Assembly (NCBI GenBank): GCA_012512925.1
Contig: JAAZDE010000017.1
Location: 1-34,369 of the forward strand
Direction of reading: 5' to 3'
Source of the DNA: Desulfuromonadaceae bacterium
GTDB lineage: Bacteria > Desulfobacterota > Desulfuromonadia > Desulfuromonadales > JAAYDE01
Length of the DNA: 34,369 bases
The notes under the pieces are model-generated. The model had not been told where the DNA came from, did not search any database, and saw only the letters and a list, made by a program, of their open reading frames with translations. Shown here one piece after another: positions 25,040 through 32,883 of the stretch. Each line of letters begins with the position of its first letter. Within the stretch, counting starts at the first letter, position 1. The position numbers and the translations under genes were made by a program.

Positions 25040-26149
25040 TTACTCCGAACGATTGTAGCCGGCCAGGAACTCCTCCTTGAAGCTGCGGAAGCGTTTCTGT
25101 TCGATGGCCTCGCGGCATTCCTTCATCAGCGTTTGGTAGAAATGGACATTGTGGATGGCGGCGAGGATGGCGGAGAGAATCTCGTTGGCGTTGTAGAGGT
25201 GATGCAGGTAGGCGCGGGTGAAGTTGCGGCAGCAGTAGCAGTCGCAGGAGTGGTCGACGGGGTAGAAGTCGCGGCGGTAGTTTCTCTTGGTGAGGCGGAT
25301 GCGGCCGCGGCGGGTGAAGAGGGTGGCGCTGCGGGCGTAGCGGGTGGGGATGACGCAGTCGAACATATCGATGCCGCGCTCCACCGATTCGAGGATGTCC
25401 TCCGGCAATCCCACCCCCATCAGGTAGCGGGGCTTGTCTTCCGGAAGGAAGGGGGCGGTGTACTCCACGACCTGCTTCAGCAGCTCCAGTCCCTCGCCGA
25501 CGCTGACGCCGCCGATGGCGTAGCCGGGAAAATCCATGGCCGTCAATTCCTCGGCGCAGTTTCGCCTCAGATCGGGATAGATCCCCCCCTGGACGATGCC
25601 GAACAGAGCCTGGTCTTTCCGTTCATGGCTTTTGAGGCAGACCCTGGCCCAGCGCAGGGTTTTGGCGATCGATTTGGCAACGTAGCCATGAGTGGCGGGG
25701 AAGGGGATGCATTCGTCGAAGGCCATGATAATGTCGGCGCCGAGGGCGTTCTGGATGGAGATGGCCTCCCTGGGGCCAAGAAAGATCTCTTCGCCGGTCA
25801 CCTCATGGCGGAAAAAGGCGCCATCCTCGGTGATCCTTTTGTTGGGCAGCGAGAAGACCTGGAAGCCGCCGCTGTCGGTGAGGATCGGACCCTTCCAGGC
25901 CATGAAGGCATGGAGTCCTCCCGCCTTGCGAACCAGGTCCTCTCCCGGTTTGAGGTGGAGATGGTAGGTATTGGCGAGAATGATCTGGGAACCGGTTTCC
26001 TCCACCTGGGCCGGAGTCATCGCTTTCATGGCGGCGTGGGTTCCCACCGGCATGAAGGCCGGGGTTTCGATGCTTCCGTGGGGAGTTTCCAGACGGCCGC
26101 GCCGTGCCTGGCAGGAAGCGTCCCGATGGATCAGAGTGAATTGGAACAT
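25040..26149 (-). CDS. tgt: tRNA-guanine transglycosylase (queuine tRNA-ribosyltransferase)
   Basis: This encodes 369 residues. It exchanges guanine 34 in tRNAs with GUN anticodons for preQ1, the first tRNA-bound step of queuosine synthesis. Motifs are FTLIHRDASCQARRGRLETPHG at the start, LTDSGGFQVFSL (substrate-binding Asp), GIVQGGIYPDLR, GGVSVGE, MGVGLPEDILESVERGIDMFDCVIPTR (nucleophile Asp) and the zinc site CDCYCCRNFTRAYLHHL. ATG 26149 begins at the family N-terminus, and the 76 extra residues of the longer open frame have no homology and cross AT-rich DNA. No good ribosome binding site is visible. No other queuosine gene is in the window. Confidence 0.95.
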   Translation of the reverse strand: MFQFTLIHRDASCQARRGRLETPHGSIETPAFMPVGTHAAMKAMTPAQVEETGSQIILANTYHLHLKPGEDLVRKAGGLHAFMAWKGPILTDSGGFQVFSLPNKRITEDGAFFRHEVTGEEIFLGPREAISIQNALGADIIMAFDECIPFPATHGYVAKSIAKTLRWARVCLKSHERKDQALFGIVQGGIYPDLRRNCAEELTAMDFPGYAIGGVSVGEGLELLKQVVEYTAPFLPEDKPRYLMGVGLPEDILESVERGIDMFDCVIPTRYARSATLFTRRGRIRLTKRNYRRDFYPVDHSCDCYCCRNFTRAYLHHLYNANEILSAILAAIHNVHFYQTLMKECREAIEQKRFRSFKEEFLAGYNRSE

Positions 26150-26370
26150 GGCCGTGAAATGGGTTGGGGGTGAGGGGCAGTCAAACCGGCGACACAAACG
26201 GTTGATGTCCTCTTGTAGCAGAAAAGCCGAGACGGGGCAACAGATGCCTTCCGCTAACCTTCGGCCCGGGCGGTTTTCTTTTTTGATCCTTTTCTGACAA
26301 TGCACCGTTTTGGCCGGCAGATCGAATTGACCTTGGCGAAAGTTGATTTTTTTATTTATTTTTACGGATA
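26150..26370. other. Non-coding stretch between tgt and the sdh control region
   Basis: No gene is visible. The stretch becomes strongly AT-rich from about 26270 and should include the tgt promoter on the minus strand, though no hexamer pair stands out. Confidence 0.4.
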
Positions 26371-26399
26371 TTGACATAAATAAAATAGTGTTTTATTTT
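26371..26399 (+). promoter_or_regulatory. AT-rich promoter-like site with a perfect inverted repeat
   Basis: TTGACA at 26371-26376 is followed 17 bases later by TATTTT at 26394-26399. Between and across them lies a perfect eight-base inverted repeat, AAATAAAA at 26378-26385 and TTTTATTT at 26391-26398, spaced by five bases. The site is 130 bases upstream of sdhC. It may be a second sdh promoter whose -10 region is covered by a regulator, or a binding site acting on the nearer promoter. Confidence 0.45.
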
Positions 26400-26527: not shown

Positions 26528-27202
26528 ATGTTCGCTAAGCTGTTCAAAAACTCGGTTGGCAGAAAACTGATTATGGCGGCCACCGGTCTCGGCATGATTG
26601 GTTTTGTGGTCATGCATCTGCTGGGGAACTTTTCCATTTTTCTCGGTCCCGAGGGCATCAACGTCTATGCCGCTCGGTTGCAGAGCCTGGGGCCTCTTCT
26701 TTGGGTGGCTCGGCTGGGGATACTTGCCATGGCGGCCTTCCATATCACCTTCGGGATCTGGTTGACGCTGGAGAACCGCCGCGCCAAGCCGGAAGCTTAC
26801 GCCGTCAGGAAACGTCAGGCATCGACCTTTGGCTCGGAGACGATGATCTACAGCGGACTGCTGCTGCTGACTTTCGTTGTCTTTCATCTGCTTCATTTCA
26901 CCCTGCGGGTTATATTTCCCGAAACTTCGAACCTGATCGATAGTGCCGGCCGTGCCGATGTCTTTACCATGGTGACCGAGAGCTTCCGCAAATTTCCTGT
27001 TGTGGTAATTTATCTCGCCGCCATGGCGGTGCTGTTTTTTCATGTTGGTCACGGTTTCAAGAGTCTGGTCCAGACCATCGGCCTGAACAACGACAAGACC
27101 CTGCCCCTGTTCGGCAAGGCCAGTCCGCTTCTCGCCCTTGTCCTGGTCCTCGGTTATATCTCCATCCCCATGCTGATTCTTTTCGGACTTGTCAAAGGAT
27201 GA
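26528..27202 (+). CDS. sdhC: Succinate dehydrogenase/fumarate reductase cytochrome b subunit (diheme type)
   Basis: This 224-residue membrane protein has five predicted helices, as in the single-subunit anchors of type B enzymes such as Wolinella FrdC and Bacillus SdhC. Candidate heme ligands are His30 (VVMHLLGNF), His72 (AAFHITFG), His120/His123 (FHLLHF) and His172/His175 (FFHVGHGF), consistent with two b hemes. It anchors SdhAB to the inner membrane and exchanges electrons with menaquinone. ATG 26528 is preceded by GGGGGA (26515-26520). The operon has no separate SdhD, as expected for this type. In Geobacter the equivalent complex works both as fumarate reductase and as succinate dehydrogenase, which may hold here. 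Confidence 0.9.
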   Translation: MFAKLFKNSVGRKLIMAATGLGMIGFVVMHLLGNFSIFLGPEGINVYAARLQSLGPLLWVARLGILAMAAFHITFGIWLTLENRRAKPEAYAVRKRQASTFGSETMIYSGLLLLTFVVFHLLHFTLRVIFPETSNLIDSAGRADVFTMVTESFRKFPVVVIYLAAMAVLFFHVGHGFKSLVQTIGLNNDKTLPLFGKASPLLALVLVLGYISIPMLILFGLVKG

Positions 27203-27221: not shown

Positions 27222-29875
<2,654 letters not shown>

Positions 29876-29904
29876 CGCCGATGGAGTAATAAAGGAGAAG
29901 GCTG

Positions 29905-29939
29905 CGGGAGCGGTGCGAATGGGCCGCTCCCGTTTTTTT
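29905..29939 (+). terminator. Strong intrinsic terminator of the sdhCAB operon
   Basis: CGGGAGCGG at 29905-29913 pairs perfectly with CCGCTCCCG at 29924-29932, ten-base loop, followed by seven T residues at 29933-29939. It is 30 bases past the sdhB stop. The start of the Cas6-like gene and its ribosome binding site follow immediately. Confidence 0.9.
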
Positions 29940-29951
29940 ATGGAGGACACC

Positions 29952-30878
29952 ATGGCTGTGACTCATCCCCCGCTGGGACAAGCGGAGTTTTCCCTGGTCC
30001 ATTTCACTCTTCGCCTGAGAGATAAGACCTTGCTCACCCCCCAGTTGCTGCTGGGGATGAGAAATGGCCTGAAAAAAGCGGCCCGCCGCCTCGACGCCGC
30101 CGCCGACGAAGACCGCGTCAAACTGATCGATCCCTCTGTTCCCTTCGATCCCTGGTCCTCCGGTACCTCGAAAAAGCCCGCTCCTCCCTTCGCCTTCCTT
30201 CCCCCCGGCCTGCACAGCCAGCAATATGCGGAGGGTGAGTCTGTCGCTCTGGCCTTCTGTTTCTGGGGGCGAGGCATCCAGAGTCTGCCACTCTTTGCCG
30301 AAATCGTTCGGGAAATGGGCGATCTGGGGCTGGAAAAAGGACTGGCGCGATTTGACCTGGTAGGGATCGACGCCGAGGACGCCACCGGCAGTTCCACCAT
30401 GATCTGGCGGGAGGATGAGGATTTCGAGGCGATGGCGCCGCCGATTATCCCCGTGGACTGGTGGCTGGAGAATCTGTCCATCCCCGAACAGCGCATGACC
30501 CTGCTCTTCCATACCCCGGCTCGCCTGATCTCCCAGAACAAACCCCTGTTCCAACCCGAATTCGGCGATATTTTCCCCTTCATGCTGCGGCGCGTGACCT
30601 CGACACTTCAACACTATTGTGACTTCACCATAAAAGTCGACGGCGGCCGGCTCGTCGAAATGGCCGGCGAATTGACCGCCACCCGTCAATCCCTTTCCTG
30701 GCAGGATTGGAAGAACATTGCCGGCCGGCAAGGGCCGAGCGCCGTCGGCGGCGTCGTCGGCGAACTGGTCGTCGAAGGGGAGGGGCTCAAGGAACTGTTG
30801 TGGATCGTCGCCCTCGGCTCCCTGCTCAATATCGGCAAAGGTGCCGCTTTCGGGGCGGGGAATTATACGGTGGAGTGA
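29952..30878 (+). CDS. Solitary Cas6-like RAMP endoribonuclease
   Basis: This encodes 308 residues. The second half matches the CRISPR Cas6 C-terminal family (PF10040 type): FHTPARLISQNKPLF, a FPFMLRRVTSTLQHY helix, WQDWKNIAGRQG, VGGVVGELVVEGEGL and the glycine-rich ending LGSLLNIGKGAAFGAGNYTVE. The N-terminal half resembles the same group (PPFAFLPPG, GESVALAFCFWGRGIQSLPLF, RFDLVGI). Cas6 cuts pre-crRNA, yet no other cas gene or repeat array lies here. Many relatives have His just before the terminal IGKG; here it is Asn, so cleavage activity is open to doubt. ATG 29952 has GGAGG (29942-29946) five bases upstream, while ATG 29940 abuts the terminator T-run. The gene has no visible promoter of its own. 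Confidence 0.82.
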   Translation: MAVTHPPLGQAEFSLVHFTLRLRDKTLLTPQLLLGMRNGLKKAARRLDAAADEDRVKLIDPSVPFDPWSSGTSKKPAPPFAFLPPGLHSQQYAEGESVALAFCFWGRGIQSLPLFAEIVREMGDLGLEKGLARFDLVGIDAEDATGSSTMIWREDEDFEAMAPPIIPVDWWLENLSIPEQRMTLLFHTPARLISQNKPLFQPEFGDIFPFMLRRVTSTLQHYCDFTIKVDGGRLVEMAGELTATRQSLSWQDWKNIAGRQGPSAVGGVVGELVVEGEGLKELLWIVALGSLLNIGKGAAFGAGNYTVE

Positions 30879-30929: not shown

Positions 30930-31289
30930 ATGAAACCGGGCGGTTCGGTCCTTCTTGATGTGTATTCGCTAGCGGCATTTGACCAACGGGAAGAGGCAGC
31001 GACATACGAAATGAGCCTCCTCAACGGATTCTGGTCACCAAACAGGTACTATGGATTTCTAAACACCTTCAAATACGACGAAGAAAAGGTTGTCCTTGAC
31101 AAGTACACGATTGTCGAATCGGGTCGCACCAGAACGGTATACAATTGGCTGCAATATTTCACTCCTGAAGAACTGGAGAGGGAGTTTGTGGAGGACGGCT
31201 TTTCCATTGAGGCGCTCTATTCAGACGTCGCCGGAACCCAGTACGATCCCAATTCGAACGAATTTGCGGTCATCGCCAGGAGGTCATAG
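30930..31289 (+). pseudogene. C-terminal remnant of a class I SAM-dependent methyltransferase
   Basis: The 119 codons begin inside a methyltransferase fold at MKPGGSVLLDVYSLAAF, the loop and strand after motif III. They continue through NWLQYFTPEELEREFVEDGFSIEALYSDVAG to the usual end EFAVIARRS. The SAM-binding glycine loop and everything before it are missing, so the gene is headless. In the next frame upstream, bases up to the TGA at 30929-30931 read ALEVLAVIHA, which resembles the helix expected directly before KPGG; a frameshift near 30929 is therefore possible. No ribosome binding site precedes the ATG. Codon use is less GC-rich than in the core genes. It lies 51 bases after the Cas6-like gene and ends just before an attC-like site. 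Confidence 0.7.
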
Positions 31290-31547: not shown

Positions 31548-31751
31548 TTATTCAATCTCAAATGATATCTTTGCGGTGATGCGATATTCGACAATTTTAT
31601 TGTCAACTACTTTGCCGCTTTTATCCTTAATATAAATCGATTTTATATTGCGAACTGTTTTAGACGCTTCTGTGATGGCATTTTGTGCCGCATCTTCCCA
31701 ACTTACTTTTGAATGGGCTAAAACTTCAATAACTTTTACAATATTTGACAT
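31548..31751 (-). CDS. Dodecin family protein, probably of the flavin-free (calcium dodecin) type
   Basis: This 67-residue protein has the dodecin pattern: VKVIEVLAHSKVSWEDAAQNAITEASKTVRNI and then KIVEYRITAKISFEIE. Dodecins form hollow twelve-subunit shells. The Trp that stacks on flavin in halobacterial and many bacterial dodecins is replaced by Ser38, and the Gln near the end is Arg57. This is the arrangement of the calcium dodecins such as mycobacterial SecE2/Rv0379, which have SWEQAA and YRIK in the same places. ATG 31751 (minus) has an excellent ribosome binding site (AAAAGGAG, six bases away). Codon use is much more AT-rich than in the core genes, suggesting transfer. Confidence 0.87.
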   Translation of the reverse strand: MSNIVKVIEVLAHSKVSWEDAAQNAITEASKTVRNIKSIYIKDKSGKVVDNKIVEYRITAKISFEIE

Positions 31752-32016: not shown

Positions 32017-32091
32017 GGATAGAAAATCGTGACTGTAGGATTTCTCCTGGTTTTTTGTCATTTTACTTTTACTGGTCATGGGAGGAAAACC

Positions 32092-32883
32092 ATGGCGCGA
32101 GCCACCCGTCATTTCATCCTCGGCTGTATCTGGCACATAACCCACCGCTGCCATAAAAAGGAATTTCTGCTGAAGTTCGCCCATGACCGCTTCCGGTTTG
32201 TGTCATGGCTGTTGGAGGCCCGCCGGCGTTTTTCTCTCCAGATACTGAATTATGCGGTAACCTCCAACCATGTTCATCTTCTGGTGAAAGACAGCGGTAA
32301 CGCGAAATCCATACCTTCTGCCATTCAACTGGTTGCCGGTCGGACCGCCCAGGAATACAACCACCGGAAAGCTCGCAAGGGGGCGTTTTGGGAAGACCGT
32401 TACCATGCTACGGCCGTAGAATCCGGGGCGCATCTGCGGCGCTGCCTCGTTTATATCGATTTGAACATGGTTCGGGCAGGCGTGGTGAGGCACCCGGTAG
32501 AGTGGATTCACGGCGGCTATCACGAAATTCAAGGGAACCGCCGTCGGAACAGGCTTCTTTCCCTCGATATACTGGCGGAACTCACAGAAACAGGCAGTTC
32601 GGAAGAGTTGGCAAAATCTTATAGAGGATGGGTCGATGATGCGCTGACTTCCGGGGCCTTCCAGCGGGAGGAACATTGGACGAAAAGTCTGGCTGTCGGG
32701 AGCGATTTCTATGTGAAAAAGATTCAGACACTTCTGGGGGGCAGGGGGAAGGGTCGGGTTGTCGATACCGCGGCTGATTTCTTTTCCCTGCGGGAATCGC
32801 CACCCCTTTATGAAAGTAATTTTGACCCTGAAAATCGGCCCATAGAGCAAAATAAAGGCTATTTTTGGGATAAAATGGATTGA
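32092..32883 (+). CDS. REP-associated tyrosine transposase (IS200-like Y1 fold)
   Basis: This encodes 263 residues. The HUH motif is His60-Val-His62 in SNHVHLLVKD, and the likely catalytic tyrosine is Tyr89 in AQEYNHRKARKGAFWEDRYHAT. YIDLNMVRAGVVRHPVEWIHGGYHEI and the C-terminal helical extension are typical of the RAYT group, not of short IS200 TnpA. The enzyme would nick single-stranded DNA at REP hairpins. ATG 32092 has GGAGG (32081-32085) six bases upstream; the longer frame from 32029 lacks one. The last 18 codons overlap the inner and middle parts of the right inverted end, so the protein sequence at the C-terminus is partly set by the repeat. The gene is intact. Confidence 0.9.
   Translation: MARATRHFILGCIWHITHRCHKKEFLLKFAHDRFRFVSWLLEARRRFSLQILNYAVTSNHVHLLVKDSGNAKSIPSAIQLVAGRTAQEYNHRKARKGAFWEDRYHATAVESGAHLRRCLVYIDLNMVRAGVVRHPVEWIHGGYHEIQGNRRRNRLLSLDILAELTETGSSEELAKSYRGWVDDALTSGAFQREEHWTKSLAVGSDFYVKKIQTLLGGRGKGRVVDTAADFFSLRESPPLYESNFDPENRPIEQNKGYFWDKMD

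Follow-up and report, generated by a model that had tools for sequence, protein, structure and literature searches.

A Cas6-family protein is encoded in nearly every high-quality genome of the class Desulfuromonadia, where its gene occurs with or without CRISPR. At a probability of roughly 60%, we propose that a Cas6 was recruited once into the core genome of this class and that it is now a CRISPR-independent, probably non-cleaving protein with a binding role. Our starting point was the member of this family encoded in the window, by which we mean the whole stretch of 34,369 nucleotides that was analysed; it corresponds to contig C69 of a genome rated 100% complete, which comprises 2.6 Mb in 213 contigs. 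Cas6 is familiar as the enzyme of CRISPR maturation. If our proposal is true, this family would clearly exemplify how a protein from the effector side of CRISPR can be exapted for core physiology. The open literature that we searched, which leaves subscription journals mostly outside, contained no description of a stand-alone or domesticated Cas6 or of this Desulfuromonadia family.

The Cas6-like protein and its fold

The gene, whose presence we confirmed, is an ORF of 308 amino acids with an ATG start (29952–30878, forward strand); a further in-frame GTG lies upstream of this ATG, at position 29913. An earlier note on this DNA had described the product as a full-length Cas6-type RAMP protein, and our searches bear this out. 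A domain search, which might have placed the protein elsewhere, assigned it to the Cas6 family: the Pfam scan matched PF10040 over residues 185–305, the C-terminal half (E 3e-11; 44.3 bits, against a curated cut-off of 25 bits), and the PADLOC Cas6 profile PDLC01477 covered residues 12–308 with an E value of 1.5e-51. The NCBIfam scan of the same protein gave no match. The AlphaFold2 model, built with 45 aligned homologs (pLDDT 91.1, pTM 0.90), showed two RRM (RAMP) domains and the C-terminal glycine-rich loop, and it matched Cas6 structures end to end, over residues 1–308. The best structural match was the Cas6 domain of the Cas6-RT-Cas1 protein of Marinomonas mediterranea MMB-1 (6dd5; Z 20.8, rmsd 3.6 over 254 residues), and further matches were the Cas6 proteins of Streptococcus thermophilus (6fjw; Z 18.5) and Sulfolobus (4ill; Z 18.4) and the corresponding domain of the Thiomicrospira Cas6-RT-Cas1 (7kft; Z 18.2). 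The Cas6 domain of Cas6-RT-Cas1 was also the only clear sequence match of the window protein in the PDB. In those proteins, however, Cas6 forms a fusion with RT-Cas1 and belongs to a type III adaptation module, whereas the window gene is stand-alone and chromosomal. By profile and fold, the window protein lies within the Cas6 family, yet it has none of the maturase features that we tested, namely the RYSxRQ loop, the His before the glycine-rich loop, the four-Cys motif and the basic charge of the type III-linked PF10040 relatives.

Distribution and independence from CRISPR

The scan of the main window ORFs against Pfam revealed no cas gene besides the Cas6-like one, and no array-like repeat family was found within the window, in agreement with the earlier note, which had seen neither cas neighbours nor an array. 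We then have to consider the genome as a whole. Profile searches of the window's own genome for Cas1 and RAMP PF03787 gave no match. The Cas10 profile gave one short match of 28.7 bits and weaker ones, but this profile also responds in control genomes, such as those of Bacillus subtilis and Lactococcus lactis; the two matches of the Cas3 profile were far below the cut-off and, like those of Cas10, of a sort that control genomes give as well. The searches thus gave no credible Cas10 or Cas3 in the genome, and the Cas10 plus Csm/Cmr gene set of a type III system was not found. Nor is the Cas6-like gene encoded with cas genes or an array, as assessed in the window for arrays and in the genome for Cas1 and RAMP.

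We searched 98 relatives with the protein and obtained 83 positives, one of which (G001) was a different, CRISPR-type Cas6. Cas1 was missing from 66 of the 98 genomes and from 53 of the 82 carriers (Fisher p 0.25 for the gene versus Cas1); the carriers without Cas1 include the single-contig genomes G015 and G049. The Cas6-like gene does not track CRISPR, being present with or without Cas1. These results bear on the suggestion of the earlier note that the protein might process arrays elsewhere in the genome. Maturation of crRNA in trans would fit the family membership and the fold, as well as the Cas1 and arrays seen in some relatives, but we consider it extremely unlikely, given that the own genome lacks a Cas1 or RAMP match, that the gene is independent of Cas1 among the relatives, and that a type III-bearing relative can encode another Cas6 besides, one that is basic and has all the motifs (L069 in G051).

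A survey of the order Desulfuromonadales covered 136 genomes, 84 of them high-quality. The gene, almost always single copy, was found in 74 of these 84, or in 74 of 75 once one family (f4) is set aside; the ten high-quality genomes without it are nine of family f4 and one metagenome-assembled genome (MAG). Carriers with a name, which identify the order as Desulfuromonadales, include Malonomonas rubra, Geothermobacter hydrogeniphilus, Pelovirga terrestris, Geoalkalibacter and Desulfuromonas. In the class, 172 of 187 high-quality genomes matched (about 172/178 without the lacking family), of which a few may be CRISPR-type Cas6, in a search that used an alignment including more distant orthologs. 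Named close-relative genomes gave no match when searched with the single window protein, and 50 loci when searched with an alignment. The Cas6-like gene is a vertically inherited, nearly universal gene of Desulfuromonadia. The class includes Geobacter, which is genetically tractable. The label "orphan" in the earlier note therefore does not fit a nearly universal class gene in a conserved place, which is no leftover of a lost CRISPR system; annotation with Pfam or PADLOC will label the family Cas6 and produce false "orphan CRISPR" calls in hundreds of genomes.

Family f4 (G006, G026, G037, G046, G053 and others) includes several complete genomes, yet lacks both the Cas6-like gene and a zinc-ribbon gene that neighbours it elsewhere. 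The traits of this family could hint at the function of the Cas6-like gene.

Descent, motifs and charge

To place the family, we took 18 CRISPR-type relatives from the phylum together with their surroundings. Among their 118 neighbour proteins, 12 matched Cas10 and others matched Csm3, Csm4 and Cmr4, and array-like repeats occurred in 6 of the 18 loci. The best matches in other parts of the phylum reached at most 185 bits, versus 286–434 bits for intact copies of the order. An unrooted maximum-likelihood tree computed from 57 proteins placed the class family on one side of a branch (support 100/99), apart from the type III CRISPR Cas6 proteins, and within it the order Desulfuromonadales was a 100/100 clade. 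Since the tree is unrooted, it is by parsimony that we take CRISPR as the source and housekeeping as the derived state: the CRISPR type occurs widely in the phylum, and the other type is limited to one class. CRISPR-type Cas6 proteins with the four-Cys motif and the RYSxRQ loop also occur in the same order, as L034 (in G001) and L069; G051 carries L069 beside a core-type copy in one genome.

The type III Cas6 proteins (PF10040) encoded beside Cas10/Csm/Cmr in Desulfobacterota share with the window protein the Pfam family, a full-length alignment and the two-RRM fold. They also have in common the glycine-rich loop, Arg213-Arg214 and the W-x-DW segment, whereas the four-Cys motif, the RYSxRQ loop, the His before the glycine-rich loop, the basic charge and the cas/CRISPR neighbours belong to the type III proteins only. 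We compared these motifs in 39 order members, 28 Geobacterales-type sequences (including L202, which is CRISPR-like) and the 18 CRISPR-linked relatives. Arg213-Arg214 (30588–30593, forward strand) and Lys296 were present in 39/39 order members, the arginine pair being kept in the CRISPR relatives as well. Arg37, in the first helix of the N-terminal RRM (codon 30060–30062, forward strand), is Arg in 36 of the 39 order members and in 17 of the 18 CRISPR-linked relatives. The Cas6 signature at the C-terminus, the glycine-rich loop GKGAAFGAG of residues 295–303 (30834–30860, forward strand), is kept.

The RYSxRQ loop, which in the CRISPR-linked relatives comes after the W-x-DW segment (30699–30728, forward strand), is missing in the window protein; it is found in all 18 CRISPR-linked relatives but in 0/39 order members, and it is gone from the 28 Geobacterales-type sequences, bar one chance regular-expression match. 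The earlier note had read Asn in place of the usual His before the IGKG loop, and the alignment agrees: Asn293 (codon 30828–30830, forward strand) sits two residues before the glycine-rich loop (LLN-IGKG), at a position that is His in 15/18 CRISPR-linked relatives, 12/28 Geobacterales-type sequences and 1/39 order members. The Cys motif, present in 17 of the 18 CRISPR-linked relatives and mostly retained in the Geobacterales type, occurs in at most one of the 39 order members, a single one of which has a Cys-rich segment. The median pI falls from 9.3 in the CRISPR type to 7.3 in Geobacterales and 6.1 in the order, and the net charge is +10.5 in the CRISPR type versus -4 in the order (p 5e-9). 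This shift is not due to host composition alone, since the CRISPR-type copies L034 and L069, from two genomes of that same order, are basic.

We suppose that the core genome of an ancestor at the base of Desulfuromonadia acquired a type III CRISPR-type Cas6 (PF10040) on a single occasion, the entry point probably lying downstream of sdhCAB, and that the gene was then inherited vertically without a link to CRISPR. What remained would be the two-RRM fold in its entirety, along with the glycine-rich loop, the Arg213-Arg214 pair and Lys296. The RYSxRQ loop would have been lost first, in the whole class; the order Desulfuromonadales would later have lost the zinc motif of four Cys as well, together with the His ahead of the glycine-rich loop and the strong positive charge. 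Such a protein presumably no longer matures crRNA and has most likely lost RNA cleavage, and its part in general cell physiology may be to bind one host RNA or a protein partner. Because the loop, the His and the positive charge are gone, crRNA maturation is very unlikely and RNA cleavage doubtful.

Loss of motifs, by analogy with other Cas6 proteins, would not prove inactivity. PfuCas6nc (3UFC) and SsoCas6 have the Cas6 fold but lack the customary catalytic His, as the window protein does; they come, however, from CRISPR genomes, and CRISPR RNA is their known or presumed target, whereas the window family occurs without CRISPR. SsoCas6 is active without the His, via a network of basic residues (PMC3652601), and the Thiomicrospira Cas6-RT-Cas1 requires an active-site Arg, R37, for processing (PMC8102632). 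The helix Arg conserved in our family is a putative counterpart of this R37, although the sequence comparison between Arg37 of the window protein and R37 of 7kft gave no demonstrable equivalence. The gene is under purifying selection (dN/dS 0.07–0.31 in 14 close pairs, with dS saturated in some pairs).

The main rival of a binding role is that of an active sequence-specific endoribonuclease with an Arg/Lys-based active site that cuts host RNA, for example housekeeping or regulatory RNA. The whole Cas6 fold is retained, Arg37, Arg213, Arg214 and Lys296 are conserved, His-less Cas6 enzymes exist (PMC3652601), and selection is purifying, all of which would fit such an enzyme. We nevertheless regard it as unlikely, though a serious contender, as the RYSxRQ loop and His293 are gone, the overall charge is acidic, and the surroundings of the gene showed neither a conserved structured RNA nor an Rfam family. 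The earlier note had also considered that the protein might now have another RNA as its target. Judged from sequence, the acidic charge and the loss of RYSxRQ would lower the likelihood that the protein was simply reused to cut RNA and would be compatible with RNA binding. The authors of the SsoCas6 study argued that recognition and chaperone-like action may count as much as cleavage in the Cas6 family (PMC3652601), and it is this argument, with the losses of motifs and charge, that leads us to favour a binding role.

The sdh locus and its neighbours

The earlier note had placed the gene beside sdhCAB, and this is accurate. Directly upstream, on the same (forward) strand, are sdhC, for the membrane subunit of succinate dehydrogenase/fumarate reductase (26528–27202), sdhA, for the flavoprotein (27222–29135), and sdhB, for the iron-sulfur subunit (29135–29875), the last of which adjoins the Cas6-like gene. 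Divergent from them is tgt, for tRNA-guanine transglycosylase (25040–26377, reverse strand), a neighbour conserved across the class. The assignments of sdhC, sdhA, sdhB and tgt come from Pfam and synteny, and Geobacterales keep the same order around sdhB.

We carried out the synteny comparison with relatives that the earlier note had proposed. In the loci of the order, the divergent tgt adjoins the gene, and a zf-TFIIB zinc-ribbon gene, ftsH, eno, phoH and pgpH lie downstream; sdhCAB stands between tgt and the Cas6-like gene in 13 of the 39 loci examined (the window and 12 others). In Geobacterales-type families, the arrangement of tgt, pointing away, followed by sdhC, sdhA, sdhB and the Cas6-like gene in the opposite direction was found in 19 of 23 examined orthologs, and the remaining four retain ftsH downstream. 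In G. sulfurreducens, frdCAB corresponds to GSU1176–GSU1178 (PMC7894505), and the gene that follows on the same strand is predicted to be the ortholog of the Cas6-like gene. Since the sdh linkage is common to the order Desulfuromonadales and the Geobacterales-type families, it is ancestral, and the lineages without sdh at the locus appear from the gene order to have lost sdh but kept the Cas6-like gene. We consider it about an even bet that a single domestication of a CRISPR endonuclease, more than an order-level divergence ago, gave rise to a core, CRISPR-independent function of the whole class, carried out by a non-cleaving RNA- or protein-binding regulator ancestrally tied to the sdh/frd operon. 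Three loci from Geobacter-like MAGs (L126, L128 and L129) have the class-type gene in a different common neighbourhood (N25–N28), without sdh or tgt nearby.

The locus and the charge also bear on a protein-only binder, an RRM-fold scaffold or regulator, for example of SDH/FRD or other central metabolism, that has lost RNA binding. The acidity that sets the family apart from CRISPR Cas6 and the ancestral place 14–66 nt, or one terminator, behind sdhB would suit it; many lineages, however, kept the gene there after sdhCAB had left, which argues against dependence on the sdh linkage, and the glycine-rich loop and the arginines are retained. This possibility, distinctly unlikely in our estimate, is a sub-case of the binding role that we prefer and is indistinguishable from it here.

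The sequence has changed fast: proteins of the order are a median 33% identical to the window protein, versus 77% for tgt. Genes with a fixed partner do not usually change so fast, and this counts against our preferred binding role. Fast change is common in defence genes and, together with the ancestry, would agree with some other defence or anti-plasmid factor that reuses the Cas6 fold; the near-universal single copy, the fixed place and the slow loss are atypical for defence genes, no defence neighbours were seen, and we hold such a factor to be very unlikely.

Between sdhB and the Cas6-like gene lies an intrinsic terminator of the sdh operon, a hairpin with a T-run (29904–29940, forward strand) that ends 11 nt before the ATG, a gap that leaves no space for a promoter. 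Of 32 sdh-linked loci, 28 have a strong hairpin with a T-run shortly before the start codon, versus 4 of 35 other loci; in the sdh-linked ones the distance ranges from 6 to about 90 nt and is mostly below 30 nt. Given that the closest terminators lack room for a promoter, the arrangement suggests that the gene in sdh-linked loci probably owes its expression to transcription that reads through the sdh terminator. We also considered the leader hairpin as a target of autoregulation and rejected this idea, as the hairpin is a feature of the sdh-linked loci and thus represents the sdh terminator. An Rfam scan around 20 orthologs found no family, and the mean folding z of the upstream regions (-0.9) is accounted for by the terminators.

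In most of the order, the Cas6-like gene is followed by a gene for a conserved Zn_ribbon_TFIIB protein of about 105 amino acids (L052:9544–9888, reverse strand, and equivalents), which often has its own promoter-like box. We rejected an obligate operon or pair with this gene, as it is missing from the window's family and from other lineages that keep the Cas6-like gene; the lineages without it are family f1, genera g26 and g48, and family f4, where the Cas6-like gene is missing too. Its place in the window is occupied by an ORF of 119 amino acids (30930–31289, forward strand), 50 nt downstream of the Cas6-like gene, which has no Pfam family and resembles a SAM-dependent methyltransferase of which only the C-terminal end is left, the front part being missing. 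This apparent remnant suggests a rearrangement break beside the Cas6-like gene in the window lineage. Farther downstream are a dodecin gene (31548–31751, reverse strand; PF07311, E 8.7e-25) and, 1.2 kb from the Cas6-like gene, a RAYT-like gene (REP-associated tyrosine transposase, Y1_Tnp; 32089–32880, forward strand).
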